From Cupriavidus sp. MP-37 (GTDB lineage Bacteria; Pseudomonadota; Gammaproteobacteria; Burkholderiales; Burkholderiaceae): a DNA stretch of 64,000 nt. The translations under genes were made by a program, and so were the position numbers. The stretch is taken from positions 1,612,001 through 1,676,000 of the forward strand of contig NZ_CP085345.1 in assembly GCF_020618415.1 (NCBI RefSeq), written 5' to 3'. The notes below the pieces were generated by a model that was not told the origin of the DNA, did no database searches, and was given only the letters and a program-made list of their open reading frames with translations. How positions within the stretch are numbered: the stretch's first letter is position 1; the number at the start of each line of letters is the position of its first letter. Below are positions 30,108 to 52,438 of the stretch, in pieces.

Positions 30108-30166
30108 GTCGCCTCCTGGCCAGCGAATAGCCCGCCGCCGAGCCGGTGGAAACGCCCACCGATCCA

Positions 30167-30183
30167 CGCAGAAACGGGTACGC
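30167..30183 (-). repeat. Outlying origin-type 17-bp box
   Basis: CGCAGAAACGGGTACGC on the plus strand, i.e. a perfect GCGTACCCGTTTCTGCG on the minus strand. It lies in the 106-bp gap between the hydrolase start and the second Wzc-like stop, over 20 kb from the origin. Confidence 0.75.
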
Positions 30184-30213: not shown

Positions 30214-32553
30214 TTATTCTTTTTTCTCTTCGCGGTGCAGCGCCTGCCCGATCCGGCGCGAGATCGGCGCGGTCGCCGGCATGCCGAGATACGGGTTGAC
30301 GCTGTTGAACTCCGCCCGGTTGCTGCGCTTGGCGATCACACAGTTGAGGATGCCGCCCAGCAGGCGGGCATCGGCCCGTTGCAGGCGCTTGAGCGTTTCA
30401 TCGACCTGGCCGGGCAGGGTAGCGTCGGCACGCAGCACCACCAGGGTCGACCCCGCCAGGTTCGCGACCAGGCTGGCATCGGCCACCGCCAGCACCGGCG
30501 GCGTGTCGATCAGCACCAGGTCGAAGCGGGCGGCGCACTGGCGCAGCGCTTCGGCCATGCCCGGGCGCATCAGCAGTTCGGACGGATTCGGCGGCGGCAA
30601 GCCCGCCGGCAGGATCGACAGCCCGTTGACCACCGTGGGCCGCACCGCGGCGGACAGCGGCACGCGCCCGGTCAGCAGTTCGGCCAGGCCGGATTCGGCG
30701 GGCTGGTCGAACCAGCTCGCCACGCGGCCGCGGCGCAGGTCGGCATCGATCAGCAGCACGCGCTGGCCGGCTTCGGCGAACAGCACGGCCAGGTTCACCG
30801 ACGCGAAGGTCTTGCCCGCGCCCGGCGCCGGGCTGGTGACGGCGATGACATGGTCGGGCGCGCTGCGCAGCGCGAAATGCACCGCGGCGCGGATATTGCG
30901 CAGCCCTTCCACCGCCAGCGAGTGCGGCGCGTTGCGCGCCAGCAGGAACTGGTCGTGCAGGCCCAGCCGCAGCATGCGCTCGGCGCTGTCATCCTCCAGC
31001 GCGGATACGTCGATCACCGCGCTCGACGGCTGCGGCCGCTCCAGGCGCGCCGACGGCGGTGCGGCATAGCCCGCGGCCACGCCCAGCAGGGCCTTGGCCG
31101 AGACCATGCGCTCGAGCGCCGCCTGTTCGCGGCTGAAGGCAATGTCGCCCAGCATGGTGATGCCGAGCTTGTCCTCGGCGTCGTTGGCGGTGGCCACGGT
31201 GGGCCGCACGCGCTGGCGCAGCGTCAGCGCCCCGGCCGCCAGCAGCATGCCCAGCACGCCGCCGCCGGCGGCCGGCGTCCACGGTCCCATGCCGATCGGC
31301 ACGGTGGGCGTGAGCGCGTTGTCGACGATGCGCACCTGGCCGGTGCGGTCGAGCTGCGCCAGCGACAGCTGCTCGACCTTGTTGCGCAGCGTCATGTACA
31401 TGTCTTCGGCCACCTTGACGTCGCGCGTCAGCGCCACGGACTCACGCTCGGACGCCGACAGGTTCTGCATGCGCGCGTCCATTTCCTGGCGCTCGCGCGT
31501 GAGCTGCTGGATCTGGCTGTCGACGGTGCGGACCTCGTTGGCTTCGGTGGTGAAGCGCTGCAGCAGCTTGGTGCGCTCCAGGCGCAGCAGCGCGATCTGG
31601 CGCTGGTATTCCATGCTGCCGTTCAGGTACGACTGCACGTCCTGGCTTGGCGCGAGCGAGCCCGAGCGCGAGCGGTAACGCGTCAGCGCGCTCTCGGCGC
31701 GCTCCAGCTCGGCCTTCACGCGCGGCAGTTCGCCGGACAGGAAGGCCAGCGTCGCGGCGGTGTCGTCCTGGCGCTGATCGGCCTGGCCCTTGATATACGA
31801 ATCGGCAATGCCGTTGACCAGCGCGGCCGCGGTGGCGGGGTCGCGGTTCTGCCAGCTGATGCGCAGCGTGGTGGCGTCGCTCGATTCGCCTTCCACGCGC
31901 AACTCGCGCGTGACGGCATCGACGGTCAGCGTCAGGTCGCGCCGCGTGACCAGGAAGCGCGTACCCGGCCGCGCCTCGATCCGGCCCACCAGCATCGAGA
32001 TGCCACCGGCCTCGGCCACCTGGCCGGCACGGCCCTCGACCTGCGCCTCCGGCCCGCTCAGCCGGAAGCCGTTGTCGGGCAGGATCTCCAGCGTCAGCGA
32101 CACGTTGAGCAGGCGCGCCGGCACGTTCAGGCGCTCCACCGCCACGCGCTCGCCGCCCCATGCGTAGCCCAGCTCCGCCGGCCACGGCCCGCGCAGCTTG
32201 CCGGGCTCGGCGAAGTGGTTGACCAGGCTGCCCAGCAGCGGCGCGCGCAGCGGCTGGATCTCGATGTCCAGGTGCAGGCGCTCGACCACCGGGCCGACCA
32301 CGGCGCGGCTCTTCAGCATGCCCAGGTCGAGCTGCGGCGTGGCGGTGCGGCCGGCGCTGTCGCGGGTCTGCAGCTGCACCAGCGCCTTGGCGCGATACAG
32401 GTCAGGGGTGGACAGCCACGCCGTCCAGGCCAGGGCCGCGCCGGCCAGCCCGGCGGCAAGGATCCAGCCTGCGTGGTCCAGCAACACGCGCGCGTTCGCG
32501 CCGCTGCGCGGCGACACCTGGTCGGGTACCGGTACGGCTCCGGCAAATGACAT
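30214..32553 (-). CDS. Second Wzc-like chain-length determinant/BY-kinase ATPase, no tyrosine tail
   Basis: 779 residues from ATG 32553; GTG at 32562 has the better-placed gggagag and may be the true start. N-terminal Wzz domain (membrane segment near residues 28-48, AGWILAAGLAGAALAWTAWL), coiled-coil middle (LAFLSGELPRVKAELERAES; QQLTRERQEMDARMQNLSAS), then a BY-kinase domain: Walker A TSPAPGAGKTFASVNLA, Walker A' VLLIDADLRRGRVASWF, Walker B LVLIDTPPV. Unlike Wzc it lacks a C-terminal tyrosine cluster; the end NPYLGMPATAPISRRIG has one Tyr. It lies between manC and the double hydrolase on the same strand. Likely a chain-length/export partner that uses ATP without being a Wzb target. Confidence 0.85.
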   Translation of the reverse strand: MSFAGAVPVPDQVSPRSGANARVLLDHAGWILAAGLAGAALAWTAWLSTPDLYRAKALVQLQTRDSAGRTATPQLDLGMLKSRAVVGPVVERLHLDIEIQPLRAPLLGSLVNHFAEPGKLRGPWPAELGYAWGGERVAVERLNVPARLLNVSLTLEILPDNGFRLSGPEAQVEGRAGQVAEAGGISMLVGRIEARPGTRFLVTRRDLTLTVDAVTRELRVEGESSDATTLRISWQNRDPATAAALVNGIADSYIKGQADQRQDDTAATLAFLSGELPRVKAELERAESALTRYRSRSGSLAPSQDVQSYLNGSMEYQRQIALLRLERTKLLQRFTTEANEVRTVDSQIQQLTRERQEMDARMQNLSASERESVALTRDVKVAEDMYMTLRNKVEQLSLAQLDRTGQVRIVDNALTPTVPIGMGPWTPAAGGGVLGMLLAAGALTLRQRVRPTVATANDAEDKLGITMLGDIAFSREQAALERMVSAKALLGVAAGYAAPPSARLERPQPSSAVIDVSALEDDSAERMLRLGLHDQFLLARNAPHSLAVEGLRNIRAAVHFALRSAPDHVIAVTSPAPGAGKTFASVNLAVLFAEAGQRVLLIDADLRRGRVASWFDQPAESGLAELLTGRVPLSAAVRPTVVNGLSILPAGLPPPNPSELLMRPGMAEALRQCAARFDLVLIDTPPVLAVADASLVANLAGSTLVVLRADATLPGQVDETLKRLQRADARLLGGILNCVIAKRSNRAEFNSVNPYLGMPATAPISRRIGQALHREEKKE

Positions 32554-32664
32554 TCTGCTCACGACATCTCTCCCGCCACACGCTGCCTCTCGCCCATCAC
32601 GCAGCAACCGGTGCGTACCCGCGCGCCTGCCGGCGCCCGGGTGCATGCACTGGCCGCCGACCCC

Positions 32665-34242
32665 TTATTTGCGCCCGTAGTTGTCTTCGAACCTCACGAT
32701 GTCGTCTTCGCCCAGGTAGGCGCCCGACTGCACCTCGATGATCTCCAGCGGCGTCTTGCCCGGGTTCTCGAGCCGGTGCAGGGTACCGATGGGGATGTAG
32801 GTCGACTGGTTTTCCGAAAGAATGCTGATGTTGTCGCCGCAGGTCACGCGCGCGGTGCCCCGCACCACCACCCAGTGCTCGGCGCGGTGGTAGTGCATCT
32901 GCAGCGACAGGCTGGCGCCGGGCTCGACCACGATGCGCTTGACCTGGAAGCGGTCGCCGCGATCGATCGAGTCATAGCAGCCCCAGGGCCGGCGTACCTT
33001 GCGATGGTTCACCACTTCATTGCCATGCTCGGAGCGGATGCGCTGGACGATGTTCTTCACGTCCTGCACGTGGGCCTTGTCGACCACCAGCACCGCATCG
33101 GCGGTTTCCACCACCACCACGTCCTGCACCCCGACGCACGCGATCAGGCGGCCTTCGGAATGCGCCAGGCACGAGCTCGCGCCATCGAACAGCACGCGGC
33201 CGCGCCCGGCATTGCCGCTGGCGTCCTTGGGCGCGATATCCCAGATCGCCGCCCACGAGCCCACGTCGGACCAGCCCGCATCCAGCGGCACCAGCATGCC
33301 GGCGATATCCGGCAGGGTCTCGAGCTTCTCCATCACGGCGTAGTCGATCGAATCGGACGGGCAGGCGTGGAACGCTTCCTTGCCCAGGCACAGCACCTCG
33401 CCGGCGCAGGCGGCATGTTCGCTCGCCGCATAGGCGGCGCGGCACTGCCGCGCCATCTCGGGCTGCAGTTCGGCCACCGCGCGCAGCCACACCGAGGCCC
33501 GCACCACGAAGATGCCGCTGTTCCACCAGAACTCGCCGGACTCGACATAGTGCTTGGCCAGCTCCAGATGCGGCTTCTCGACGAAGCGGTCCAGCATGAA
33601 GGCGCCATGGTCGGCGCCGCCGGCCGCGCGGATGTAGCCGAAGCCGGTCTCGGGCGCCACCGGCTTCACGCCCAGCGTGACGATGGCACCGTGGTCTGCA
33701 TGCTGGATCGCGGTGGCGATGGCCTCGCGGAAGGACGCGACGTCGGCCACGCTGTGGTCGGCCGGCGTTACCACCAGCACCGCATCGCCACCCTCGCCCG
33801 CGGCCGCCAGCGCATGCAGCGCGGCCACCGTCAGCGCCGGCGCGGTATTGCGCCCGCACGGTTCGGACAGCACGCGCGCGGGCTTGCCGGCGCGCTTCAT
33901 CATGTCGGTGATCATGAAGCGGTGCTCTTCCCCGCAGACCACGATCTGCGCCGCTTCCATGCCGTCGGGGCGGCCCGCCAGCGCGGCCACGCCGGCGAGG
34001 CGGTTGGCCGTGGCTTCCAGCAGCGTGTCTTCGGCAATCAGGTTCAGCAGCTGCTTGGGAAACTGCTCGCGCGACAGCGGCCACAGGCGCGTACCGGCGC
34101 CGCCGGCAAGGATCACGGGCTGCACCACCGGCAACGCGGCGCAATGCGCCGCCCTGTCGCCCAGCCCTTGCAGCGCTGCATGGATTTCGCCGTTGACCGG
34201 CGGCGGCGTCTGGTTCTCTTCCCGGGTCCGAATTCGCATCAT
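32665..34242 (-). CDS. manC: Mannose-1-phosphate guanylyltransferase / mannose-6-phosphate isomerase (type II)
   Basis: 525 residues. Bifunctional sugar-nucleotide enzyme: N-terminal guanylyltransferase with VQPVILAGGAGTRLWPLSRE and QFPKQLLNLIAEDTLLEATA, ending with a C-terminal cupin phosphomannose isomerase (PGASLSLQMHYHRAEHWVVV with metal His residues, YIPIGTLHRLENPGKTPLEI). Makes GDP-mannose, the precursor used by Gmd and Fcl. caggagg lies immediately before ATG 34242; the adjacent ATG at 34239 is spaced better. ~45 residues precede the usual family start, so a shorter start is possible. No phosphomannomutase (manB) is in the window. Confidence 0.93.
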   Translation of the reverse strand: MMRIRTREENQTPPPVNGEIHAALQGLGDRAAHCAALPVVQPVILAGGAGTRLWPLSREQFPKQLLNLIAEDTLLEATANRLAGVAALAGRPDGMEAAQIVVCGEEHRFMITDMMKRAGKPARVLSEPCGRNTAPALTVAALHALAAAGEGGDAVLVVTPADHSVADVASFREAIATAIQHADHGAIVTLGVKPVAPETGFGYIRAAGGADHGAFMLDRFVEKPHLELAKHYVESGEFWWNSGIFVVRASVWLRAVAELQPEMARQCRAAYAASEHAACAGEVLCLGKEAFHACPSDSIDYAVMEKLETLPDIAGMLVPLDAGWSDVGSWAAIWDIAPKDASGNAGRGRVLFDGASSCLAHSEGRLIACVGVQDVVVVETADAVLVVDKAHVQDVKNIVQRIRSEHGNEVVNHRKVRRPWGCYDSIDRGDRFQVKRIVVEPGASLSLQMHYHRAEHWVVVRGTARVTCGDNISILSENQSTYIPIGTLHRLENPGKTPLEIIEVQSGAYLGEDDIVRFEDNYGRK

Positions 34243-34595
34243 GCCTCCTGACGTGTCGCCTGTTCCAAGCGTCCCGCGCGTCCGGCCCGGCCCTGCGCAA
34301 CCATCGCGACGGCCTCGCAGAAACGGGTACGCCCGGCAGCGGTCCCTGACCGCCATGACGGGGATGCCAGCCAGTCTAGGCAGGCGCCCTGGCGCAATCT
34401 GTTCGATTCCGCACACGCTACTTGCGCCGCCGCAGCGGGCCGCGGGCACGCGCGCCGCGGGCGTCCGCGATCGCGCGCGCTCTGTTGGAGAACGCACCGA
34501 TAGCCGCGGCCGCCGGCGTTGCAATACAGTGGGCCGTGCAGGCGCAGCGCTTGCCATCGCGGCCCGGCGGCATGCGCGCACGGCGCAGGAACGAC
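34243..34595. other. Divergent intergenic region manC / DUF1839-1
   Basis: About 350 bp between two divergent genes. It holds an outlying origin-type box (34316-34332) and presumably both promoters; a caatacagt element near 34531 could be a -10 region for the plus-strand gene. Nothing else is recognisable. Confidence 0.5.
34316..34332 (-). repeat. Outlying origin-type 17-bp box
   Basis: CGCAGAAACGGGTACGC on the plus strand, identical to the copy at 30167 and the consensus of the origin cluster. Lies about 75 bp upstream of the manC start. Confidence 0.75.
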
Positions 34596-35687
34596 ATGGA
34601 GCGGGCGGTGGCAATGACGGCAGCGATCTCGCCAGGAACGGCAACCACGGCAACCACGGACATTGACCGCGGCGGCTACCACTACTCGCGCCAGTCGCCG
34701 TGCCGCGTGGCCAGGCCGGTGCAGCGCTGGCTGCACGATGAAGCCTCGGTCTGGCAGGAGACCAATTGCTACATGGACCTGTGGATCGAGCTGCTGTATG
34801 GCTGGGGACTCGACCCGCGCGCGGCGCTGGCATTCACCGTGGCGCAGGACTACGAGGGCGACCATTTCACCTTCTTCAAGTACCCGCAGGCGGATATCGA
34901 GCTGCTGTACGGCACGGTGGTGCAGGAGATGGCGGTCTACGACACACTGCAGGCCCACCTGGTCGAACAGGTCGGGCGCGGCCATACCGTGCTGGTCGAG
35001 ATGGACAGCTACTACCTGCCCGACACGCGCGCCACCGCCTACCGCCAGGCACACGTGAAGACCACCGTCGCCATCGACCGGATCGACCCGGCCGCGCAGC
35101 GGCTGTCCTACTACCACAGCCTTGGGTACCACACCGCCGAGGATGAGGACTACCGCGGCCTGTTGCGCCTGACGCCCGCACTGCGCGACGGCAACATCCT
35201 GTTTCCGTACGCCGAATGCGCCAAGCGCGTGCGCGCGCCGCTGCGGGGCGCGGCCGCGGCCGATGCGGCCGCGATGCTGATGCGCCACCACCTGGGCCGC
35301 CGCCCCGCGCTGAACCCGGTGACGCGCTGGCGCGCCGACTTCGACCAGCACGTCGCGGTGATCCTGGCGCGCGGCGATGCCTACTTCCATCACTACGGCT
35401 TCAACCTGCCGCGCCAGCTGGGGGCGAACTTCGAGATGCTGCATCACTGCCTCGCTTGGTTCGGCGAGCATGGTTACGATGTGCCCGCGCGCATCGCGCG
35501 GGCGGCCAACAGCATGGCCGAGCAAAGCAAGGTGCTGCAGTTCCGCCTGGCCCGGGCCATGGCGCGCGGCCGTCCGGACCGCTGCGCCGAATGCCTGGAC
35601 ACGATGGAGTCCGCTTATGAAACGGTCATCGCCGGCCTGCTGTCGTCGTTCGGCGCCGCCGATCGGGCGCAGCCGGCATACGCCTGA
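34596..35687 (+). CDS. DUF1839-family protein, copy 1
   Basis: 363 residues from ATG 34596 (MERAVAMTAAISPGTATTAT), which has caggaa 6 nt upstream. The core starts at YHYSRQSPCRVARPVQRWLH, then NCYMDLWIELLYGWGLDPRA, FTVAQDYEGDHFTFFKYPQA, VLVEMDSYYLPDTRATAYRQ and KTTVAIDRID. This matches the DUF1839 family as I remember it. A paralogue is encoded at 39556-40536 next to the amino acid:[carrier protein] ligase, and DUF1839 proteins are repeatedly neighbours of such ligases. The papain-like pattern of conserved Asp/His/Tyr hints at an enzyme that handles carrier-bound aminoacyl groups, but no function is established. No signal peptide. Confidence 0.75.
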   Translation: MERAVAMTAAISPGTATTATTDIDRGGYHYSRQSPCRVARPVQRWLHDEASVWQETNCYMDLWIELLYGWGLDPRAALAFTVAQDYEGDHFTFFKYPQADIELLYGTVVQEMAVYDTLQAHLVEQVGRGHTVLVEMDSYYLPDTRATAYRQAHVKTTVAIDRIDPAAQRLSYYHSLGYHTAEDEDYRGLLRLTPALRDGNILFPYAECAKRVRAPLRGAAAADAAAMLMRHHLGRRPALNPVTRWRADFDQHVAVILARGDAYFHHYGFNLPRQLGANFEMLHHCLAWFGEHGYDVPARIARAANSMAEQSKVLQFRLARAMARGRPDRCAECLDTMESAYETVIAGLLSSFGAADRAQPAYA

Positions 35688-35763: not shown

Positions 35764-36486
35764 TCAGGCGTGGGCCAGCGCTGGCAACAGGCGGTCGTAC
35801 TCGCGCTTGACCAGCTTGTAGCATTCGCAGGAATGCTTCTCGAGCCCGCAATGATCGAGGATGGTGATATGGCCGCGGCTGTGGTGGATCAGCCCCAGGT
35901 TTTCCAGCTTGCCGGCCGCTTCGGTAACGCCTTCGCGGCGCACGCCCAGCATGTTGGCGATGACCTGCTGGGTGATGACCAGCTCGTCGGAGTTCATGCG
36001 GTCGCGTGCCAGCAGCAGCCAGCGGCACAGCTGCTTGTTCAGCGAATGGTGGCGGTTGCATGCCGCGGTCTGCGCGATCTGCGTCAGCACCGCCTGCACA
36101 TACAGCAGCGTGACGCGCTGCAGGGTCGGCAGGTAGGACAGTTCGGCGCGCAGCGCGCGCGCGGGAATGCGGTAGGCAAAGCCCGGGCTGCGCACTTCGA
36201 CGCGGCTGGGCATGGTATCGCCGCCCGTCACCACCGGAATGCCGACCAGGCCTTCATTGCCGACCGCGGCAAACTCGACCGTGGCGCCGTCCTCGAGCAG
36301 CGACAGCAGCGACACCACCGAGGTGGTCGGGAAATACACATGCACGATGCGCTGGCTGGTGTCAGTCAGCAGTTCGCCGGCACGCAGCCGGACCAGTTCA
36401 AAGTGGCGCGACAGCGTTTCCCATTCCTGCCGCGGCAAGGCATTGAGCAGATGATTGACATGCAGGTCCGACCGTTGCGTGATCAT
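35764..36486 (-). CDS. Crp/Fnr-family transcriptional regulator
   Basis: 240 residues. N-terminal cyclic-nucleotide-binding-like beta roll (RLRAGELLTDTSQRIVHVYF, EDGATVEFAAVGNEGLVGIP) and a C-terminal Crp winged helix: DELVITQQVIANMLGVRREG followed by VTEAAGKLENLGLIHHSRGH. The last ~25 residues hold Cys/His (LDHCGLEKHSCECYKLV). The missing canonical cAMP-binding arginine/serine motif suggests a different signal. ggggag lies ~8 nt before ATG 36486. It lies just downstream of the five-gene carrier-protein operon on the same strand, separated by a long hairpin, and may regulate it. Confidence 0.88.
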   Translation of the reverse strand: MITQRSDLHVNHLLNALPRQEWETLSRHFELVRLRAGELLTDTSQRIVHVYFPTTSVVSLLSLLEDGATVEFAAVGNEGLVGIPVVTGGDTMPSRVEVRSPGFAYRIPARALRAELSYLPTLQRVTLLYVQAVLTQIAQTAACNRHHSLNKQLCRWLLLARDRMNSDELVITQQVIANMLGVRREGVTEAAGKLENLGLIHHSRGHITILDHCGLEKHSCECYKLVKREYDRLLPALAHA

Positions 36487-36940
36487 GCTGATTCTCCCCG
36501 TTGACCCGGGACCGGCACTGGGCCGCCGCTCGCGCACTGGCTGCGTGGTGCAAAGCCCGGCTGTACCGCTCCACCCGTGACTGATGCTTACCGACTTGTT
36601 GACACCGCGTATGACTGACTGATGACGGCTGCCATCCGCTTTCCGTCCCGACGCGCAAGCCCTGCGGTGCGCTGTGTGCCTGCCTCGTCGTTTGACTGTA
36701 TTAAGTGCTATGGCGCACTGAAGCGACAGTAGGCAGACGGTTGGTACTCGTTCATCCTTTGGTTGGTTGGTAGCAGGCCGCCGGGTACCCGCATTCGCCG
36801 CCAAGGCTGGCGGCGAATGCAAGTACCCGGCGGCGGCATGCACGGGACTTGCCGGCAGCGACACGCTGCCAGGCAAGGCATGACAAGGGAGGAACCGGCC
36901 GGCGGGGGGCGGCTGGTGGGGCCTGTGCGCCCTATGCGTC
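36487..36940. other. Intergenic region with long hairpin upstream of the Crp-type regulator
   Basis: About 450 bp between the GH2 stop and the Crp-type start. The part 36640-36770 is AT-richer (cgtttgactgtattaagtgc; ttcatcctttggttggttgg) and likely promoter-bearing for the regulator. The hairpin is listed separately. No gene seen. Confidence 0.5.
36777..36834. terminator. 26-bp-arm hairpin downstream of the GH2 operon
   Basis: Arms 36777-36802 and 36809-36834 pair over 26 bp with only two mismatched positions and a 6-nt loop. It lies ~105 bp beyond the stop of the GH2 gene that closes the carrier-protein operon. No T-run follows on either strand, so it could be an RNA-stabilising or transcription-attenuating hairpin, or a large operator for the downstream Crp-type gene. 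Confidence 0.6.
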
Positions 36941-39559
36941 CTATGCGCCCGGCGCGGCGTAGCTGGCCGGCCGGTCGGCGTTGACGGCGTAGATCTCGCC
37001 CGAAGGGATGGCGCCGGCCGCCACGCCCGGGCCGCTCTCATGCATCAGGCGGATACGCCGCGTTTCACCGGGCCCCAGGTGGAACCAGTCCTGCTCCGGC
37101 AGGAAGGCGTGGTCCTCGATATGCACCCAGCGCGCAAAGCGGCGCGTGCCGAGGTGCAGCCACCACTGGCCCTGCACGCATTCGACGCGGCCATGCAGTT
37201 CGGGCGGCGCCAGCGCGGCGGCGCTGCGGTCGGGCAGGTAGACCGCCTGGCTCAGCGGCGTGCCGGCGCCGTCGTCATCGGCATGCAGCGTGGCCAGCAC
37301 CACGTCGTGGGCCGGCGGCCCGAAGCGGTAGGCGTAGGTGAAATCGAAGAACTGGTCGAGCATCGCCGCCGCGGCGATCCGGCAGGATTCGCGCGGCCGC
37401 AGCGCCAGCACCTGCCGCGCCTGCGCCGCCACCGCCTCGCCGTCGCGCAGGCAGCGCAGCGTCAGCAGCACCGTGCGCGGCTGCGCGGTTTCATTGATGA
37501 CATGCACATGCAGGCCGTTCAGGCCCTCGTCGGTCAGCAGCACCTGCAGCGGCTGCCACACCGCGCGCAAGGCATGCCAGGGCGACTTGGGGCGCCCGCG
37601 CGCGTCGACGATGCCCCAGCCGGCGCCGGGCAGCAGGTCCTGCAACTGCCACACCAGCCCGCCGGCGCAGCTGGAACCCACGCGGCGCCATTCGCTGAAC
37701 ACCTCGGTCATGACTTCCGCCACCACCGCGCGCGACAACTCCAGGTAGCGCGCCGGGCGCTCATAGCGCAGACACGGCGGATCGACCTGGTACAGCGCGC
37801 GCAGGTAGAAGTCGCGAATATCCTCGAAGTCCCACGCCGCGCCGGCATCGCGCGGCACCCGCGCCTTCCAGCGCGGGTCGTGCAGCGGCTGGCTCAGGCC
37901 GTGTTCGCGCAGCGTGCGCGCGCCTGGCACGTTGGCAAAGGCCAGGCACTCGGAAGCAAAGCGCACGTTGGCCAGCCGCGCATCCGCCAGCGGGCGCTGG
38001 TAGGCGCCCACGCCGTAGTAATGGGTGACGCCGGTGTCGGGCTGGAACGGCCACGCGCCTTCGCTGGGCGAGTTGCGCACATAGACCACGTCGGCACGGT
38101 GCCGGGCCACCAGGCCGGGGATCAGCTCGTCGAACAGCGGCTGGCGCCAGTCGCCGCGCGGCGTGCCCAGCATGGCGGCCTGCTGCTCGGCTTCGCTGCC
38201 GCCGCACAGCACCGCGATGGCCGGGTGCGCGCGCGTCGACTGCAGCCACTGGCCGACTTCGAGCGCGGCATCGTCCATCAGCCCGCGCGACGCTTGCGGA
38301 TCCGCGCCGTAGTCGAAATTGGCGAACATGAAGTCCTGCCACACCAGCAGCCCCAGCGCATCGCAGCAACGGTAGAAGGCCTCGCCGGGATAGCAGGTGA
38401 CGCCGCTGACCCGCACCATGTTCATGCCCGCGTCGCGCGCCAGCCGCAGCCAGCCGGCGACGGCCTCGTCGCTGTCGGCCAGTCCGGGCAAATCATGGCT
38501 GGACACGCAGGCGCCGCGGCAGAAGATGCGCTCGCCGTTGACGCGCAGCGCAAAGGCGCCGGGCTCGCCGTCGCGGTCTTCCTCGACCGTGCGGAAGCCC
38601 ACTTGCGCGCAATGCAGCGCCTGCGTGCCGAGACGGGCCTCGACGCGATACAGCGCAGGCTCGCCATGCGTATGCGGCCACCAGCGGCGCGCATGCGGCA
38701 CGCGCAGCGTGCCGGCCAGCACATGCGCCGACGTACGCGTCAGGCTGCCCCAGATTTCACTGTCGCCATGCGCAGCCAGCCAGCGCGCCTGGGCCGGCGC
38801 CGGCCCCGGGAAGTGCAGCGTCAGCGCAATGATGCCGTCGGCGCCGTCGGTGCCGTCCAACCGCGCGCTGGCCTCGGCGCGCACGCCGTGCAGCGGATCG
38901 GCGCTGGCCGGATCGAGCAGCTCGATGCTGCGCCACGGCCCCACCGCATGGACCGGCGGACACCAGCCCGGCATATGGCCCAGCAGCGTGGTGCGGACCG
39001 CGCGCAGCGTCGGCGGCACGATCATGCGCGGCTTCCAGCGGACCTGGCCGCGCTGCTTGCGCAGCCACGGATGCAACGCGCGGAAGCACAGGTGCAGCGT
39101 GTTGTCGCCAGCCAGCTGCACCGCCACCTGGTGGGCGGCGAACATATGGCGCGTGGTCAGCACCAGCACCCCGTTGAGCCATACCTCGGCCAGCGTCGCC
39201 AGGCCATTGCAGCGCAGCGTGCGCGCGCCGCTGCCGGCAAAGCGCACGCAATACCAGTAGTCATGCCGGTGCAGCGGCGGCGGCGCGCTGTCGTCCCAGC
39301 GGCCCGCCGCGCGCAGGGCCGCGGCCACGGTGCCGGGCACCGGCGCGGGCAGCCACGGCGCATCGGGGGCGAGGTCTGCCGGCGCCTGCGCCGCGCCCGC
39401 GAGCGTTTCCAGCCAGCGCCATTCGCCGGCGAGATCGCATGGGCCCACGGCGACGCCGGGGGCAAGCGTCGTGCCGGTCGCCGCCGTTGCAACGGATGTG
39501 GCGTGGGTCATTGCCGCGGACTGGCCTTGCGCCAGGGCCGCCGCGTCGCGTGCGCTCAT
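36941..39559 (-). CDS. GH2 beta-mannosidase-like glycoside hydrolase
   Basis: 872 residues. Standard GH2 layout: N-terminal galactose-binding-like domain (APVPGTVAAALRAAGRWDDS; CNGLATLAEVWLNGVLVLTT), Ig-like domain, then a TIM barrel. The probable acid/base is Glu456 in LCGGSEAEQ and the nucleophile Glu537 in RFASECLAF, matching the GGNE and FxSE signatures of beta-mannosidases (GGSE here). No signal peptide, so it acts in the cytoplasm. Its ATG overlaps the stop of the DUF1839 gene by 4 bp, which puts it in the same translationally coupled operon as an amino acid:carrier ligase. A glycosyl hydrolase in such an operon suggests the acceptor is a mannoside. Hydrolase versus transferase activity is unresolved. 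Confidence 0.85.
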   Translation of the reverse strand: MSARDAAALAQGQSAAMTHATSVATAATGTTLAPGVAVGPCDLAGEWRWLETLAGAAQAPADLAPDAPWLPAPVPGTVAAALRAAGRWDDSAPPPLHRHDYWYCVRFAGSGARTLRCNGLATLAEVWLNGVLVLTTRHMFAAHQVAVQLAGDNTLHLCFRALHPWLRKQRGQVRWKPRMIVPPTLRAVRTTLLGHMPGWCPPVHAVGPWRSIELLDPASADPLHGVRAEASARLDGTDGADGIIALTLHFPGPAPAQARWLAAHGDSEIWGSLTRTSAHVLAGTLRVPHARRWWPHTHGEPALYRVEARLGTQALHCAQVGFRTVEEDRDGEPGAFALRVNGERIFCRGACVSSHDLPGLADSDEAVAGWLRLARDAGMNMVRVSGVTCYPGEAFYRCCDALGLLVWQDFMFANFDYGADPQASRGLMDDAALEVGQWLQSTRAHPAIAVLCGGSEAEQQAAMLGTPRGDWRQPLFDELIPGLVARHRADVVYVRNSPSEGAWPFQPDTGVTHYYGVGAYQRPLADARLANVRFASECLAFANVPGARTLREHGLSQPLHDPRWKARVPRDAGAAWDFEDIRDFYLRALYQVDPPCLRYERPARYLELSRAVVAEVMTEVFSEWRRVGSSCAGGLVWQLQDLLPGAGWGIVDARGRPKSPWHALRAVWQPLQVLLTDEGLNGLHVHVINETAQPRTVLLTLRCLRDGEAVAAQARQVLALRPRESCRIAAAAMLDQFFDFTYAYRFGPPAHDVVLATLHADDDGAGTPLSQAVYLPDRSAAALAPPELHGRVECVQGQWWLHLGTRRFARWVHIEDHAFLPEQDWFHLGPGETRRIRLMHESGPGVAAGAIPSGEIYAVNADRPASYAAPGA

Positions 39560-40536
39560 GCCACGCTCGCGCCGAAGTGCGAGGCCAGGGCCGGCACCGT
39601 GCCCTGGTAGGCCTGCTCGAGCTGGTCCAGGCAGTCCTGGCAGGGATCGGACTTGCGGCTGATCACCGCGCGCATCAGCCGGAACTGCATCACCATGGCT
39701 TCGGACGCCATGGTGTAGCAGGCCTCGCCGATGCAATCGGGCAGCGAGTGCCCGTGCAGCACCAGCCAGCGCAGGTAACGCCCGAGCAGTTCGAAATTGA
39801 CGCCCAGCTGGCGCAGCACGCTGGCCGCATAAACCTGGAAGTTGGGCTCGCCGCGCGCCATCAGGTGTTCGAGATGGCCTGGGAACGCCATGCGGAACAC
39901 GCTGATCGGGTTGTGCTGCGGACGGCGCGACAGGTGATGGCGCAGCAGTTCCAGCGAAGTCCGCATCAGCGCGGCATCGGTCAGCGCGGCAAAGCGCCGC
40001 CGCGCCACCGACGCATGCGGAAACGCCGCGAGCTCGCCGTAGCCCACCGTCGCCGGGCGGAAGATGGCGGCATAGTCCTCGCCGCTGGCGGTGTGGTAGC
40101 CGTCGCCGTGGAAGTAGCCGACGGCGGCGGCCTCGGGCACCAATACGTCAATGCCGATGCACGAGCGCATATGCTGGCGGCGATAGGTGCCGGCCGGCTG
40201 CGGCAGCTGGTAGCTGTCGACTTCCAGCAGCACCACGTTGCCGCGCGCGGTCTGGGTGGCCACATGCGCCTCGAGCCGGTCGTACATCGACAGCTCGTGC
40301 GTGACGATGCCGTACAGGCGTTCGAGGTCGTTGGCGGGGAAGGCCGAGAGCGTGAACTGGTCGCCCTCGAAGTCCTGTGCCACGGTGAACGGCAACGCGG
40401 CAATCGGCTCGAGGTCCCAGCCCTGCAGCAACTCGACCCACAGGTCGATCTGCTGGTTCGCATGGGACCAGACCGGATTGCCGCCATGCCAGGTGGAGCG
40501 GCCTGCGCGAACCCTGGCCCTGCCGTCGCCGTACAT
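39556..40536 (-). CDS. DUF1839-family protein, copy 2
   Basis: 326 residues; paralogue of the protein at 34596-35687. Shared core: QQIDLWVELLQGWDLEPIAA, FTVAQDFEGDQFTLSAFPAN, LYGIVTHELSMYDRLEAHVA, VVLLEVDSYQLPQPAGTYRR, EALRQLGVNFELL-type ending and a C-terminal CQDCLDQLEQAY. Its ATG abuts the stop codon of the ligase gene with no gap, and it overlaps the GH2 start, so ligase, DUF1839 and GH2 are one translation unit. It begins about 30 residues later than copy 1 relative to the shared core, so an upstream non-ATG start is possible. Function unknown; DUF1839 genes typically accompany amino acid:[carrier protein] ligases. Confidence 0.8.
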   Translation of the reverse strand: MYGDGRARVRAGRSTWHGGNPVWSHANQQIDLWVELLQGWDLEPIAALPFTVAQDFEGDQFTLSAFPANDLERLYGIVTHELSMYDRLEAHVATQTARGNVVLLEVDSYQLPQPAGTYRRQHMRSCIGIDVLVPEAAAVGYFHGDGYHTASGEDYAAIFRPATVGYGELAAFPHASVARRRFAALTDAALMRTSLELLRHHLSRRPQHNPISVFRMAFPGHLEHLMARGEPNFQVYAASVLRQLGVNFELLGRYLRWLVLHGHSLPDCIGEACYTMASEAMVMQFRLMRAVISRKSDPCQDCLDQLEQAYQGTVPALASHFGASVA

Positions 40537-41538
40537 TTACCCCCCCCACAGCGTGTCGCGGACGGTTTGGGGCCAGCGTGCGGGATCCAGCCCGTGGTGG
40601 CGCAGCAGCGCCAGCGCCATGCGCTCGACGCCGATGCCAACGCAGCCCGTGTGCGCAATAGCGCCGTCCGCGCTGCGCAGGTTCCACATATGGCCGAAGT
40701 GGTCCATGTGGTAGTTGAAGCTCATGCACGCCGAGGGCGGCGCGCCGTCGTTGATCGGTATCAGCAGCTCGAACTTGAGCCTGAGCTCGCGCTGGCTTTC
40801 GGCGACGAGCTTGCCGCCGCGCCCGAAGAACGGGTCGTTGGCAACGTCGATCTCCACCGGCAACTGCAGCGCCGTGCCCAGTTCGGGCACGCGTTCGAGC
40901 CACTGCTCGCGGAACGCGGCGATGCGCTGCGGGGTTCCCAGGCAGACGTACTCGCGCTGGCGGAACAGCTGCATGCGGGTCGGCTCCCGCGAGGACTCGT
41001 GGCGGAAGCAGTACGACATCACGTCGACCACCTTGCCGTCTTCGGGCAGCGGCCCGCGCCGCGCGATCACCGGGTAGACCGGATAGCACGCGGCCGGGGT
41101 CAGCACCACGCCGGTCGGCTGCTGCTGGTCGGTCCAGTCGTCCTTGTCCTCCAGGCGCGCGAGCAGGCGGCGGTGGCCCTTGTCGTCGCCGCAGAAGCTG
41201 TGGACGGTGCCAGCCAGCTGCGGAAAGCTCTTCATGTAGCCGCTGGTTTCGAAGTCCGCCTGGCCCATGGCCGGCGGGAAGTGCAGCGTCTCCGCGCCGA
41301 GGCCGTGCCCCAGGCGCGTCATGACGTGGTTCATGCCTTCGCAGATCGATTCGAAGGTGGTGTTGCGACCATAGAGGCCGGGCACGCCGGTCGGGATCAT
41401 CAGGCCCTCGGCCACCAGCTGCTCGAGGAACGTGGGGCCGGAGGCGCCCGGCGCCGGCTTGCTGCGCCGCGCGGCGGCGCCGGACTCGGCCGCGGCGCCG
41501 CCCTGGGCAGCGCCGTCGGTCAGGGTATGGACGTCCAT
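40537..41538 (-). CDS. Amino acid:[carrier protein] ligase (class II aaRS-like)
   Basis: 333 residues. A truncated, atypical seryl-tRNA-synthetase-like class II core without any tRNA-binding N-terminal coiled coil. Motif 2: SYCFRHESSREPTRMQLFRQ then REYV (Arg179). Motif 3: TGCVGIGVERMALALLRHHG (Arg306). Zinc-ligand triad is Cys151, Glu196, Cys299; the spacing (45 and 103) equals that of the Bradyrhizobium aa:CP ligase triad Cys131/Glu176/Cys279 as I recall it. Known homologues load glycine or alanine onto the phosphopantetheine of a small carrier protein with ATP. The cognate carrier protein is encoded two genes upstream. The amino acid here is not predictable with certainty. Confidence 0.85.
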   Translation of the reverse strand: MDVHTLTDGAAQGGAAAESGAAARRSKPAPGASGPTFLEQLVAEGLMIPTGVPGLYGRNTTFESICEGMNHVMTRLGHGLGAETLHFPPAMGQADFETSGYMKSFPQLAGTVHSFCGDDKGHRRLLARLEDKDDWTDQQQPTGVVLTPAACYPVYPVIARRGPLPEDGKVVDVMSYCFRHESSREPTRMQLFRQREYVCLGTPQRIAAFREQWLERVPELGTALQLPVEIDVANDPFFGRGGKLVAESQRELRLKFELLIPINDGAPPSACMSFNYHMDHFGHMWNLRSADGAIAHTGCVGIGVERMALALLRHHGLDPARWPQTVRDTLWGG

Positions 41539-41548
41539 GCGATCCCCC

Positions 41549-42754
41549 TCAGGAACGGTCGGCCAGCAACAGATTGGCCGTGTTGGTCAGGATGCGATCG
41601 TTGTTGATCATCAGCGGCGCCGACCACAGATCGCGCAAGTGGCGGCCCAGGCTGAACGGCGTGCCGTGCTTGTAGCCCGCCATGCCGCACACCAGCATGG
41701 CCTGCTGCACCGCCTCCAGCGCCAGCGTGGACACCGCGGTCTTGAGCCCGTTCATGCCCGCGGCCAGCGCGAATGCGCTCGACACCGACGGCTCGGCATG
41801 GCGCCGGCGCTGCTGTTCCAGCGCCAGTTCCAGGCGCCCTTCGATCAGCTGCAGCAGGCTCACCGCTTCTGCCACGCGCGCCGCCGACGGCGGCAGCGCG
41901 CCGGGCCGCACGCGTGCCTGCCCCTGGAAGAAGGTCTTGGCGCGCGCCACCGCATCGCTGCAGATGCCGAGCCACAGCGCACTCCACAGGATGTGCGACA
42001 CCGGCGTCATGGTGGCGTCGGCAATCTCGCCGAACGGCACCGGCAGCACCTGCGCCAGTGTCCCGCTGGCCTCGAGCCGGAAGCCGTTGCTGCAGGTGCC
42101 GCGCATGCCCAGCGTGTCCCACGCGTTCAGGCTTTGCAGCGTGTAGTCCGGTTTCAGTGCGCACACCAGTACCTGGTCCGACGGCGCGGCATCGGCATGG
42201 CGGCGCGCCGTGATCAGGATGCCGTCGGCATGCGCGCCGTACGAAATCGTCGGCGCCATCTTGAGCAGGTGGAAGCGCTCGCCGTCGAGGTTGAGCGCGC
42301 AGCCACTGCTGCGCAGCGCGCCGCCGATGGCTTCCTCGGAGGTGGCCGAAGCCAGCAGCAACTGCTCGGCGGCAATCCGCGCCAGCAAGTCCTGGTGCCA
42401 GGCGCTGCCGCTGCCGTGTTCGAGCACGCAGGCCACCTGGATCTGGTGCATGGCGTAGATCATGCCGGTCGACGCGCACGCCGCGCCAAGCACGCGGCAG
42501 ATTGCCGCCACCGTGGCCAGCGAGGCGCCGGCACCGCCGTGCGCGGCCGGCACCATGGCGCCGATCAGGCCATGCTCGCGCAGGCTGTCGCAGGCTTCCT
42601 GCGGGAAGCGCGCGTCGCGGTCGACGGCGTCGGCATGCGCCTGTGCCACCGCGGCAGCGGCCTGGGCGGCGGCGAGCAGCGCCTCGCTGCTCGCCTGCAC
42701 GGCATCCGGGCCCGCGCTGGAATGCGCCAGTGCCACCCTGGCCATGGGGATCAT
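41549..42754 (-). CDS. Acyl-CoA dehydrogenase-family flavoprotein
   Basis: 401 residues of the acyl-CoA dehydrogenase fold: DAVDRDARFPQEACDSLREH (N-terminal helical), LIGAMVPAAHGGAGASLATV, GMIYAMHQIQVACVLEHG, middle beta domain MAPTISYGAHADGILITARR, and LNAWDTLGMRGTCSNGFRLE (the WDxxGMRGTxS flavin-site segment). C-terminal FSLGRHLRDLWSAPLMINND matches the family Arg-Asp end. Start overlaps the carrier-protein stop (ATGA) and its stop is 10 bp before the ligase start. Relatives act on CoA esters or on aminoacyl/acyl groups bound to carrier proteins; the setting argues for the carrier-bound aminoacyl thioester. The catalytic Glu was not located with certainty. Confidence 0.82.
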   Translation of the reverse strand: MIPMARVALAHSSAGPDAVQASSEALLAAAQAAAAVAQAHADAVDRDARFPQEACDSLREHGLIGAMVPAAHGGAGASLATVAAICRVLGAACASTGMIYAMHQIQVACVLEHGSGSAWHQDLLARIAAEQLLLASATSEEAIGGALRSSGCALNLDGERFHLLKMAPTISYGAHADGILITARRHADAAPSDQVLVCALKPDYTLQSLNAWDTLGMRGTCSNGFRLEASGTLAQVLPVPFGEIADATMTPVSHILWSALWLGICSDAVARAKTFFQGQARVRPGALPPSAARVAEAVSLLQLIEGRLELALEQQRRRHAEPSVSSAFALAAGMNGLKTAVSTLALEAVQQAMLVCGMAGYKHGTPFSLGRHLRDLWSAPLMINNDRILTNTANLLLADRS

Positions 42755-43002
42755 GCCGCCTCCTGCTGCTGCCGGATCTGCTCGACCGCGGCGGCCAGGG
42801 AATCGACGCTGCGGAACAGCTGGCGCGTCAGCATCTGGTCCGGGATCTCGATGTCGAAAGCGTTCTCGAGCGCGAGCATCACGTGCACGGTGGCCAGCGA
42901 CGACAGGCCGGCGGCATACAGGTCATCGCTGTCTGCCAGATTGGCGAGCGGCACATCGAGCCGGGCAACTTCGCCCAGGATGCTGCGGATGGTTGCTTTC
43001 AT
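42751..43002 (-). CDS. Small acyl/peptidyl-carrier-like protein
   Basis: 83 residues, acidic, four-helix carrier fold. DDLYAAGLSSLATVHVMLAL is the phosphopantetheine site; Ser35 (the Ser of SSL) is the expected attachment residue. cggaggcgttcc precedes the ATG at 43002, a strong ribosome-binding site. It heads the minus-strand operon carrier protein, ACAD, ligase, DUF1839, GH2, all linked by overlaps or gaps of 10 bp or less. It should be the substrate of the amino acid ligase. Needs a phosphopantetheinyl transferase encoded elsewhere. Confidence 0.9.
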   Translation of the reverse strand: MKATIRSILGEVARLDVPLANLADSDDLYAAGLSSLATVHVMLALENAFDIEIPDQMLTRQLFRSVDSLAAAVEQIRQQQEAA

Positions 43003-43110: not shown

Positions 43111-44514
43111 TCAATACGCACTGGCGCCGGTCCAGCCGTGCAGCGCGGTGCGCAGGATGATCTGCAGGTCGAGCTGGAACGACCAGTGCTGGATGTAGTA
43201 GATGTCGAACTCGATACGCCGGCGCATCTTCTCGACGGTATCGGTCTGGCCGCGCAGGCCGTTGATCTGGGCCCAGCCGGTGATGCCCGGCTTGACCCGG
43301 TGCCGCAGCATGTAGCGGTCGATCAGCTCCTTGTAGAGCTCGTTGTGCTCCATCGCATGGGGGCGCGGGCCCACCACCGACATCTCGCCGCGCAGCACAT
43401 TCAGGAACTGGGGCAGCTCGTCCAGGCTGGTGCGGCGCAGGAAGGCGCCGACCCGCGTCACGCGCGCATCGCCGCGTACCGCCTGCGTCACGCCCACGTC
43501 GGCGTGCTGGCGCATGGTGCGGAACTTGAAGACATCGAACGGGCGCCCGTCCATGCCGAGGCGCCGCTGGCGGAACAGCACCGGCCCGGGCGACGACAGC
43601 TTCACCAGCACCGCCACCACCAGCAGCAGCGGCGCCAGTCCGACCAGCGCCGCCAGCGCGAAGGCGCGGTCGAAGCTGGCCTTGAGCAGGCCGGTGATGC
43701 CCGACACCGGCGGGCTGTTCAGGTCGATCACGGGCAGGCCGAGGAACTCGCTGAAGCGGTGGCCGAGCAGCTCCACCGACATGACGTCGGGGATCCAGCG
43801 GATGTCGATCAGCTCATTGCGGAACTGCCGCACCACGTCGTACAGGTCGCGGCATGCCACCATCGGCAGCGTCAGCCAGATCTCCCTGACCGCCTGGCTG
43901 CGCACGAACAGGTTGACCTCCTCCATGGTGCGCAGCGATACCACGCCGTCGGGTACCGCGATCGGCTCCTCATGGTAGATGCCGACCACGCGATAGCCCG
44001 CGGCGCGGATCTGGTCCACGCGCAGGTACATCTCGCGCCCCAGCGGGCCGTAGCCGAAGATCACCACGCGCTTGGCGTTGATGCCCTGCTCGCGCACATT
44101 GCCCAGCATGCGGAACATGACGGCACGCACCCCCGCCAGCGCCAGCAGGCTGGAGCCGAACCAGCCCAGCGACCAGACCCGCGACACCGCGGCGATCTGG
44201 TGCATCAGGAACGCGGTCATCAGCCCGACGATAAACACCGTGGCCCACGCGGCGAGCAGGCGCAGCACCAGCGCCGCGCGGCTGCGCCCGCGCCACGATT
44301 CATAGATGCCGAAGGCGGGAAACACCGCCAGCACCCCGATTGAGCACAGCGCGGCCAGGAAGCCGTGCACCGGCGCGGCGCCGCGGATGCCCTCCGGAAA
44401 GTACAGCGCACCGATCATGACCGCGCAGGCGCCTACCAGCACCGCGTCGGCGAGCCGGTACAACAAGTGCAGCGCCGTGTGGCGCTCTGCCGCAAAGGTC
44501 GAACTGGATGCCAT
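43111..44514 (-). CDS. Undecaprenyl-phosphate glycosyl-1-phosphate transferase, WcaJ-like
   Basis: 467 residues. N-terminal membrane helices and a CoA-binding-like domain (VVIFGYGPLGREMYLRVDQI), then the bacterial sugar transferase domain: SSPGPVLFRQRRLGMDGRPF, DVFKFRTMRQHAD, LRRTSLDELPQFLNVLRGEM and SVVGPRPHAMEHN, and KPGITGWAQINGLRGQTDTV. Matches WcaJ, which transfers glucose- or galactose-1-phosphate to undecaprenyl phosphate and starts EPS repeat-unit assembly. ATG at 44514; the frame continues seven codons upstream without a better start. It precedes the carrier-protein operon by 108 bp on the same strand. Confidence 0.92.
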   Translation of the reverse strand: MASSSTFAAERHTALHLLYRLADAVLVGACAVMIGALYFPEGIRGAAPVHGFLAALCSIGVLAVFPAFGIYESWRGRSRAALVLRLLAAWATVFIVGLMTAFLMHQIAAVSRVWSLGWFGSSLLALAGVRAVMFRMLGNVREQGINAKRVVIFGYGPLGREMYLRVDQIRAAGYRVVGIYHEEPIAVPDGVVSLRTMEEVNLFVRSQAVREIWLTLPMVACRDLYDVVRQFRNELIDIRWIPDVMSVELLGHRFSEFLGLPVIDLNSPPVSGITGLLKASFDRAFALAALVGLAPLLLVVAVLVKLSSPGPVLFRQRRLGMDGRPFDVFKFRTMRQHADVGVTQAVRGDARVTRVGAFLRRTSLDELPQFLNVLRGEMSVVGPRPHAMEHNELYKELIDRYMLRHRVKPGITGWAQINGLRGQTDTVEKMRRRIEFDIYYIQHWSFQLDLQIILRTALHGWTGASAY

Positions 44515-44630
44515 GGCTGCCCACCGCGAATGCAATGCTCGATGCAGCGATGGTTGCCGAGCCGCCCGCCAGTGTCTGTTGGCGGGCGCACACAGCCCAT
44601 GGCGCGGGAATCCGCCCGGCGCGGCCGCAT

Positions 44631-50095: not shown

Positions 50096-51112
50096 TCAGA
50101 GCAAGGTCTTGTCGAGTCCGAAGCGAGACTTCAGCGCTTCAACCAGGGCCTCGCGCGCACTGCGGTCGGTCAGTTGCACGTCCAGCATCACGCGTCCGGA
50201 ATCCCATTCCTTGATGGTGCCGAGCAGCTGGCCGCTGTCGGTGCGAATCTTGTACTGCCGGCTGATCTCCTTGACCTTGCGCGCCTTGCCTTCCTGCGCC
50301 TGCTTGCGGATCGCCTCGACTTCGCGGCTGGACAGCCCGTCGTGGATGATCCGCCCCGCCAGCTCGCGCGTCCGCTCTTCGCCGGCCAGCTTGAAGTACA
50401 GCGTCAGTTCGTAGCCGGCGGCAATGCCGATCGCGCTCGGGCATTCGCGCATCACGCCCAGCACCGACTCCGGCAGGCGCAGCAACGCGAGCGTCTTGTT
50501 CACGGTGCCCGCGGAGATGCCGGTCAGCTCGCAGATCTCCTCTTCCTTCTGGACCTTGCCTTCATCGAGCAGCTGGCGCCAGGCAATGGCATTGTCGAGC
50601 GCGGACTGGTCCGAGCGCTGCTCGTTCAGCATGAACGACAGCCGGTAGAAATCCAGGTCGCTCAGGTCGTTCTCGACAAAACATTCCATTTCGAGCTTGC
50701 CGGCGGACGCCAGGGCTCGCTTGCGGTAATGGCCGTCGATCAGGATGTAGTGGCCCGGGCGCGCCGGATCCGGCGCCGCCAGGCCCGGCGTCTTCTGGCC
50801 GTGCGTGGCGATCGACGCGGCGCGTTCCTGCACCACGGCAGGATCGTAGATACGGCGCGCATTCAGCGGGTTGTCATGCAGCTGCGCCAGCGGAATACGG
50901 ATCAGTTGCCGGCCCGCGGCGACGTCGTCGAGACTTTCAGCGCTGAAACCCGGGGCGGTTTCTGCAGCTGCCCTGCCCTGCAGCAGGCCGTTGGGATGCT
51001 GGGAAATGGCCGCTTCCGCCCGCGCGAAGCGGTCCATCGTATCGTTGCGGCTCTTCTCGGCCGCCATGCCGGCGAGCATGCCTGCCTTGAGGCTTTTTAG
51101 TTTGGTAGCCAT
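50096..51112 (-). CDS. parB: ParB-family partition protein
   Basis: 338 residues. ParB/Sulfiredoxin N-terminal domain: RIPLAQLHDNPLNARRIYDP and GHYILIDGHYRKRALASAGK (the conserved DGHxR-type stretch), then a KorB/SpoOJ helix-turn-helix: VQKEEEICELTGISAGTVNK, ALLRLPESVLGVM. Binds parS and works with ParA to segregate the replicon. It starts two bases downstream of the parA stop (51115), so they form one operon. A copy of the palindrome TTTCAGCGCTGAAA (50935-50948) lies inside its coding region, a common place for parS. Confidence 0.93.
   Translation of the reverse strand: MATKLKSLKAGMLAGMAAEKSRNDTMDRFARAEAAISQHPNGLLQGRAAAETAPGFSAESLDDVAAGRQLIRIPLAQLHDNPLNARRIYDPAVVQERAASIATHGQKTPGLAAPDPARPGHYILIDGHYRKRALASAGKLEMECFVENDLSDLDFYRLSFMLNEQRSDQSALDNAIAWRQLLDEGKVQKEEEICELTGISAGTVNKTLALLRLPESVLGVMRECPSAIGIAAGYELTLYFKLAGEERTRELAGRIIHDGLSSREVEAIRKQAQEGKARKVKEISRQYKIRTDSGQLLGTIKEWDSGRVMLDVQLTDRSAREALVEALKSRFGLDKTLL
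50935..50948. promoter_or_regulatory. Candidate parS site in parB
   Basis: TTTCAGCGCTGAAA, a perfect 14-bp palindrome, identical to the core of the one upstream of parA. Two copies within 850 bp of each other next to parAB make it a strong candidate ParB target. Confidence 0.6.
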
Positions 51113-51114
51113 GC

Positions 51115-51774: not shown

Positions 51775-51783
51775 GCGACCTCT

Positions 51784-51799
51784 CTTTCAGCGCTGAAAG
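51784..51799. promoter_or_regulatory. Candidate parS / parAB operator
   Basis: CTTTCAGCGCTGAAAG, a perfect 16-bp palindrome directly upstream of parA, sharing a 14-bp core with 50935-50948. The 16-bp palindromic form is like parS sites of secondary chromosomes in Burkholderia. Confidence 0.65.
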
Positions 51800-52354: not shown

Positions 52355-52405
52355 TCCAGTCTCGGCTGACCTCTCCCCCGCCGCGACGCGTTCGTGGCGG
52401 GCAAC

Positions 52406-52438
52406 AAAAAAGGCAAGCGTTTCGCGCTTGCCTTTTTT
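52406..52438. terminator. Bidirectional intrinsic terminator (csp / rep)
   Basis: aaaaaaggcaagcg, short loop, then cgcttgcctttttt. T-runs in both directions, so it stops both the plus-strand csp gene and the convergent minus-strand rep gene. Confidence 0.9.

Follow-up and report, generated by a model that had tools for sequence, protein, structure and literature searches.

A carrier-protein-dependent operon with paired DUF1839 proteins in a Cupriavidus exopolysaccharide locus: a candidate amide-forming system for sugar acceptors

The stretch of DNA analysed here, called the window, comprises 64,000 nucleotides of Cupriavidus sp. MP-37 (contig NZ_CP085345.1, positions 1,612,001 to 1,676,000). 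It contains a single tight operon on the minus strand (43002-36941), whose open reading frames encode a carrier protein (CP), a flavoprotein with the acyl-CoA dehydrogenase (ACAD) fold, an amino acid:CP ligase, a DUF1839 protein and a GH2 glycosidase (Table 1). The CP and ACAD-like genes overlap by 4 bp, the ACAD-like and ligase genes are separated by 10 bp, and the ligase and DUF1839 genes adjoin with no gap. The DUF1839 and GH2 genes share a 4-bp overlap (ATGA) if GH2 starts at the ATG at 39559, a start codon chosen by eye. The original prediction, a note made from the sequence alone, had described a five-gene operon with 4-bp overlaps or gaps of at most 10 bp, flanked by WcaJ-like and ManC genes. 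All five genes and their junctions are present as it described, and both flanking genes exceed the cut-offs of their families. The surroundings are an exopolysaccharide (EPS) locus on a chromid, in which glycosyltransferases and a polysaccharide deacetylase accompany WcaJ, ManC, Wza, a GDP-mannose dehydratase and two Wzc-like proteins; repA and parAB genes lie farther out. Beyond the earlier note, the present analysis adds the loss of a Cys residue in the operon DUF1839, an intact second DUF1839 gene on the plus strand and a fused double alpha/beta-hydrolase (ABH).

Table 1. Features of the operon and its surroundings in the window
Feature	Position	Strand	Match or basis
Carrier protein, 83 aa, GLSS motif with conserved Ser35	42751-43002	-	PF00550, NF005480
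ACAD-fold flavoprotein, 401 aa	41549-42754	-	PF02771 (Acyl-CoA_dh_N)
Amino acid:[carrier protein] ligase, 333 aa, class II synthetase core	40537-41538	-	NF005479
DUF1839, operon copy, 326 aa, Gln28 instead of catalytic Cys	39556-40536	-	PF08893
GH2 glycosidase	36941-39559	-	GH2 family match
Second (lone) DUF1839, 357 aa, alternative start 34596, Cys52 present	34614-35687	+	
Divergent intergenic region, manC / second DUF1839	34240-34613		Sequence read; both start codons by eye
Crp/Fnr-like regulator, downstream of GH2	35764-36510	-	HTH_Crp_2
Fused double ABH	28296-30167	-	TIGR03101-like N half, TIGR03100-like C half
WcaJ-type undecaprenyl-phosphate glucose phosphotransferase	43111-44535	-	TIGR03023, 513.7 bits, cut-off 410.75
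ManC, mannose-1-phosphate guanylyltransferase / mannose-6-phosphate isomerase	32665-34239	-	TIGR01479, 602.5 bits, cut-off 372.95

The ligase scores 505.6 bits against NF005479 (amino acid--[acyl-carrier-protein] ligase; cut-off 357), and its nearest solved structures are those of Bll0957 (4h2w, E 4e-89; 3mey, E 2e-87). The candidate zinc triad, Cys151/Glu196/Cys299, lies where the alignment to Bll0957 is ungapped, giving the same spacings of 45 and 148, and all three residues are among the positions conserved at 93% or more in a comparison of 106 sequences. We take them to be zinc ligands from the structures of Bll0957 and SerRS. Matches to SerRS span only its catalytic part, and a tRNA-binding domain is absent from the ligase, so that both the class and the missing domain agree with what had been predicted. 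The CP, a member of the PP-binding family, scores 128.1 bits against NF005480 (cut-off 72); its best solved relatives are 4h2w chain C and 2jq4 (Atu2571), with E about 1e-18, and Ser35 is conserved in the same 106-sequence comparison. The ligase and CP belong to the known amino acid:CP ligase pair, membership from which a loading activity would be expected.

The operon DUF1839 scores 415.3 bits against PF08893 (cut-off 22.5). The predicted DUF1839 fold is closest to CcbD, AziU and CtaG across nearly the full length, and is in the model that of enzymes moving CP-bound acyl or aminoacyl groups onto amines. The lone DUF1839 beside manC is predicted to have the CcbD/CtaG-type fold over most of its length; its Cys52 begins a helix (52-63), and His168 is invariant in alignment A3. 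Judging from this model, the lone copy is probably an active amide synthase. The usual DUF1839 motif, NCYVDLW, reads NCYMDLW in the lone copy and NQQIDLW in the operon copy, where Gln28 occupies the Cys position and RSC replaces the KTT motif. The window's arrangement recurs in Cupriavidus metallidurans CH34 (L268), a laboratory strain whose operon copy reads HANRHIDLW and whose lone copy reads ETNCYMDLW.

The grouping of these genes is widespread and ordered. Among 150 Burkholderiaceae genomes, 60 carry DUF1839 and 62 the ligase, which exceeds the cut-off in 61. The grouping is not due to chance, because 57 of the 85 DUF1839 copies lie directly downstream of the ligase. Across the phylum, in 398 genomes that include the window genome and four relatives, DUF1839 occurs in 16; a ligase above the cut-off is present in 28, all 16 included (the ligase frame of G345 has an internal stop). 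The co-occurrence p-values ignore kinship, the positive genomes falling in 9 or 10 of 25 genera. The complete order CP-ACAD-ligase-DUF1839-GH2 is kept in 75/91 DUF1839 loci and in 0/8 ligase-only loci; by group, it is found in 18/27 Cupriavidus-like loci, 46/53 of the Paraburkholderia/Caballeronia type and 11/11 from other families. Chance assembly was rejected on the counts of linkage and co-occurrence. The 80 named loci lean to near kin, being the best 80 of 552 relatives. Of five annotated plasmid records, those of Azospirillum lipoferum, Shinella, Rhizobium gallicum and Mycetohabitans also have the five genes together, and in the fifth, R. leguminosarum Vaf10, whose gene table is incomplete, DUF1839 alone is annotated. 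A Crp/Fnr-like gene is a frequent neighbour of the operon, with a homologue in 75/116 loci. Variants occur as well. L182 (G048) has two ligase genes flanking the ABH and no DUF1839 match in the genome, and at L160, L145, L130 and L101 DUF1839 lies near a Crp-like gene in genomes where no ligase was found.

Neither canonical catalytic position of the ACAD-like protein (MCAD-376 and IVD-254, placed by hand from reference motifs) is a Glu; the residues there are Ile383 and Ser253. Ile383 is conserved at 93% or more in the 106 sequences, position 253 is Ser or Ala in the rows shown, and the motifs HxLW and RHLRD...MINNDR are kept in most of the sequences. The canonical Glu is not known from ACAD-fold monooxygenases either. 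Near-equal profile scores were obtained for 7p98 (cyclohexene-carboxyl-CoA dehydrogenase) and for four sequences from three sugar N-oxygenases (KijD3, nitrososynthase and DnmZ); other dehydrogenases followed closely. Foldseek ranks TdsC/DszC first for the fold, and VIA-align gives ties with true dehydrogenases. A CP-dependent oxidase or N-oxygenase is possible on these comparisons.

Two hydrolases complete the set. The nearest solved structures of the GH2 protein are beta-mannosidases, and both catalytic Glu are present: the E of GGSE and that of SE align with beta-mannosidase 6byc, and we take them to be the acid/base and the nucleophile. The Glu of GGSE, a motif that stands where 6byc reads GNNE, is conserved in 91/91 homologues covering the site and that of the second motif in 89/91. 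Inspection of the GH2 protein by eye found no signal peptide. The ABH falls below both cut-offs (TIGR03100, 85.6 of 168.45 bits; TIGR03101, 76.8 of 202.75 bits). Its N half mostly reads GLRxG, without a nucleophile, and its C half bears a Cys nucleophile elbow (GxCxG), which at least 23 of 30 covering homologues share, as counted on the motif rows shown. In the Burkholderiaceae set the ABH is present in 60/62 ligase genomes vs 3/88 others, and for this reason it is counted as a sixth component; G145 was left out as a weak match, and G036 was counted as ligase-positive though below the cut-off.

We propose that these genes encode a CP-dependent amide-forming, or aminoacylation, system for a sugar acceptor, here most likely an EPS building block or repeat unit, and we hold the chances for and against this proposal to be about even. 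The class II ligase would adenylate a small amino acid and load it onto the holo-CP, an activity proven for the family. The ACAD-fold flavoenzyme may then oxidise the CP-bound aminoacyl group, possibly on nitrogen. A DUF1839 protein, as a cysteine amide synthase of the CcbD/CtaG type, would take the acyl group onto its Cys and pass it to a sugar amine; here the separate gene beside manC would supply the working copy, with the Cys-less operon copy as partner subunit. The GH2 protein and the Cys-type ABH would finally trim the product or move it on. Aminoacylation had already been suggested by the original prediction, and membership in the ligase/CP pair and the predicted amine-transfer fold of DUF1839 speak for that part of it. 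The mannose-containing target that it named is not supported as such, the GH2 substrate not being readable from sequence.

Several observations weigh against this proposal. A DUF1839 profile search of PDB sequences detected neither CcbD nor CtaG, so the kinship rests on the predicted fold, and a common fold by itself shows no function. The modelled ACAD fold match does not tell a dehydrogenase from a monooxygenase. The ligase is missing in 8 of 18 searched DUF1839 genomes (from 19 chosen loci, most picked as odd), and the Cys is present in 7 of the 8; such DUF1839 proteins may use another donor, or their loci may be decaying. Two Cupriavidus-type two-copy genomes, L094 and G542, have Cys in both copies. 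No amino-sugar aminotransferase (PF01041) that could supply an acceptor amine is found in the window, and the polysaccharide deacetylase at 20212-21024 as its source is a guess only. Outside the family, the homology test used within it detects WcaJ, Wza, Wzc or ManC at 0/11 loci, and no annotated EPS assembly gene stands beside the five genes in the Azospirillum, Mycetohabitans and R. gallicum records.

The lack of such assembly genes in those three records, together with the missing PF01041 enzyme, would also suit a different product: not a decorated polysaccharide but an amino-acyl glycoside or a related metabolite, small and diffusible. The EPS location in Burkholderiaceae would then be regulatory or historical. 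The closest fold relatives, CcbD, CtaG and AziU, come from antibiotic pathways, which points the same way. In 60/64 complete operons of the window's family, however, a homologue of WcaJ, Wza, Wzc or ManC lies within a fetched stretch of about 20 kb, which speaks against such a product, as does the second DUF1839 copy, placed mostly near a manC or WcaJ homologue. In other families, the glycosyltransferases and an ABH-Wzx-like fusion speak against it too. We regard a small metabolite as rather unlikely. Group-1 glycosyltransferases make up 7/94 flanking proteins at the 11 outside loci vs at most 2/132 in control regions from the same genomes, an upper bound set by the absence of this protein family from the 25 that were listed. 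Of 110 candidates, 94 were used, after removal of eight hydrolases and of eight frames that were short or lay at an edge; short frames were kept in the controls. Ten hand-picked neighbours at five of these loci include Wzx- or Wzz-like genes in three: the ABH is fused to a Wzx-like domain, with a glycosyltransferase before it, at L162; L168 has a Wzx-like protein, and L170 Wzx- and Wzz-like proteins. The hand-picked neighbours at L161 and L171 are transport proteins. In Shinella, GumC and O-antigen ligase genes lie about 6-9 kb from the five genes. The polysaccharide link of the original prediction thus stands in the window's family, where homologous operons are not mostly away from polysaccharide genes, and is weaker elsewhere, where the core homologues are missing yet glycosyltransferases flank the loci. 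EPS as the target in this genome is plausible and moderately supported.

Some further observations concern these neighbourhoods. On R. gallicum pRGM101a (L200, 553-15449), the five genes follow nifHDK, nifN, nifX and, just upstream, an annotated exopolysaccharide production repressor gene. At L162 and similar outside-family loci, class II tRNA-synthetase-like, radical SAM and EF-P families recur at 4/94 flanking proteins each, which resembles an EF-P modification set. The window itself has two Wzc-like tyrosine autokinases within one EPS locus (30214-32646 and 24372-27059) and, near that locus, a VpsR-domain sigma-54 activator (58249-59745) as a candidate regulator. The genes parA, parB and repA at 50096-53635 place the locus close to the chromid replication region. 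An ARAGORN call of tRNA-Thr at 43560-43652 (-), within the WcaJ coding region, is probably a false positive.

The presence of live-looking and dead-looking DUF1839 copies in one genome is a recurrent pattern. The Cys is found at the motif position in 141/190 DUF1839 rows, some genes having been fetched twice. On a tree of 80 representatives of the 158 distinct rows, this residue must have changed six or more times, by gain or loss; the tree was built by a quick method, with some long branches and the Cys column kept in. With twice-fetched genomes merged by hand, 25 Cupriavidus-type genomes have a Cys-less copy and 23 of these also have a Cys copy; the two exceptions, G537 and G098, are both ligase-less. 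A Caballeronia-like genus mirrors this arrangement. Its second, ligase-distant copies are Cys-less in 12/12 genomes and adjoin a Crp-like gene and a WcaJ homologue, and its ligase-linked copies read NCYVDLW in 11/11 genomes and also in the twelfth (L031), G091, which carries a third DUF1839 copy. Further Cys-less copies (L183, L184, L139 and L190) have no adjacent ligase. As a side observation, the second DUF1839 copy is usually near a manC or WcaJ homologue; and at L239 (G045) the ACAD-like and GH2 genes are apparently shortened, with the CP, the ligase and both DUF1839 copies remaining.

By analogy with the shared interface of CcbD, we infer that the Cys-less operon DUF1839 may be a non-catalytic partner subunit. 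It could also be pictured as a functionless relic, decaying after the second copy took over: the Cys and the adjacent Thr motif are gone, the tree needs its six or more changes, and two ligase-less genomes retain only the Cys-less copy. The ratio of nonsynonymous to synonymous substitution rates (dN/dS) is, however, 0.02-0.10 for the Cys-less operon copies vs 0.17-0.29 for their Cys-bearing partners (six pairs, four close genomes), so that a pseudogene reading is disfavoured by the sequences of these four genomes. All 27 sequences of alignment A1, Cys-less ones included, share His143 and the RQxGxN motif, though both vary in the distant Cys-less copies L183, L184 and L234, and the open frame is retained in the operon across a clade of many species. 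A relic is improbable on this evidence. A stricter version of the partner role is an obligate pair, in which the Cys-bearing DUF1839 would catalyse and the Cys-less one would give CP or acceptor binding across the dimer interface, as does the neighbour monomer in CcbD. The pair would place a perhaps N-oxidised amino acid on an EPS sugar, which would represent a first function for the orphan ligases. In such a pair, the gene for the Cys-less copy would accompany those for the ligase and CP in Cupriavidus and lie apart from both in the Caballeronia-like genus. We put the obligate pair forward tentatively, as a doubtful proposal by analogy.

It is improbable that DUF1839 only hydrolyses the aminoacyl-CP thioester to release a modified free amino acid: the papain-like fold and Cys, as described in PMC10318531, suit a thioesterase equally, but CcbD, AziU and CtaG are the closest folds over nearly the full length, and the linked GH2 enzyme would have no task.

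The idea of sugar aminoacylation has a history. Amino acid:CP ligases were reported in 2010, as named in a note added in proof of that year by Aravind and co-workers. This note links the ligase to a CP, a redox enzyme, a glycosidase, saccharide genes and Atu2574, a conserved gene of unknown function, and predicts amino acid transfer to a cell-surface sugar amine (PMC2922099). A 2023 survey describes DUF1839 as papain-like with a triad of Cys, Thr/Ser and His and suggests glycan processing (PMC10318531), and a 2022 review still calls the role of these ligases unknown (PMC9437257). Given the predictions in PMC2922099 and PMC10318531, the idea of the original prediction is therefore not new in outline. 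Added here are a sharper mechanism and the unexpected pairing of live-looking and dead-looking DUF1839 copies; a literature search, with most subscription papers outside its coverage, showed among the matches listed no link of DUF1839 to CcbD/CtaG and no report of a Cys-less DUF1839, and a single covered paper uses the name DUF1839. With DUF1839 as a CcbD/CtaG-like amide synthase, the role of the ligase would become a defined assay question, involving ligase, CP, DUF1839 and an amine. The pairing, if functional, would represent a CP enzyme in which one paralogue catalyses and the other binds. Were EPS the target, the system would be a bacterial tRNA-free route for aminoacylating surface sugars.

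Among known systems, the nearest are the ligase/CP pairs of Bradyrhizobium (Bll0957) and Agrobacterium (Atu2571-2574), the window ligase being nearest Bll0957 and the window CP nearest Atu2571. The Atu2571-2574 locus shares its kind of neighbourhood with the window, and Atu2574 is named as a conserved uncharacterised gene in PMC2922099. Unlike the known pairs, the window has a doubled DUF1839 with a Cys-less operon copy, and it differs from eight ligase-only loci, which carry the ACAD and ligase genes without DUF1839 or GH2. The window ABH matches hydrolases 1 and 2 of XrtA (exosortase-A) EPS loci (TIGR03100, TIGR03101), one per half, but it is fused, below both cut-offs and mostly nucleophile-less in its N half. 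The amino-sugar N-oxygenases (KijD3, ORF36 nitrososynthase, DnmZ) and DszC-type monooxygenases have the ACAD fold and are among the best profile and Foldseek matches of the flavoprotein, at identities of 18-24%. CtaG, of the closthioamide pathway, and AziU3/U2 stand in other gene neighbourhoods than the window proteins, and their donors and products are unlike those proposed for DUF1839. The lincosamide condensing enzymes CcbD/LmbD share 12% identity with DUF1839 and are missed by the sequence profile. In the lincosamide system the donor is loaded by the adenylation domain LmbC/CcbC, according to PMC4351081, whereas in the window this task would fall to a relative of class II synthetases.

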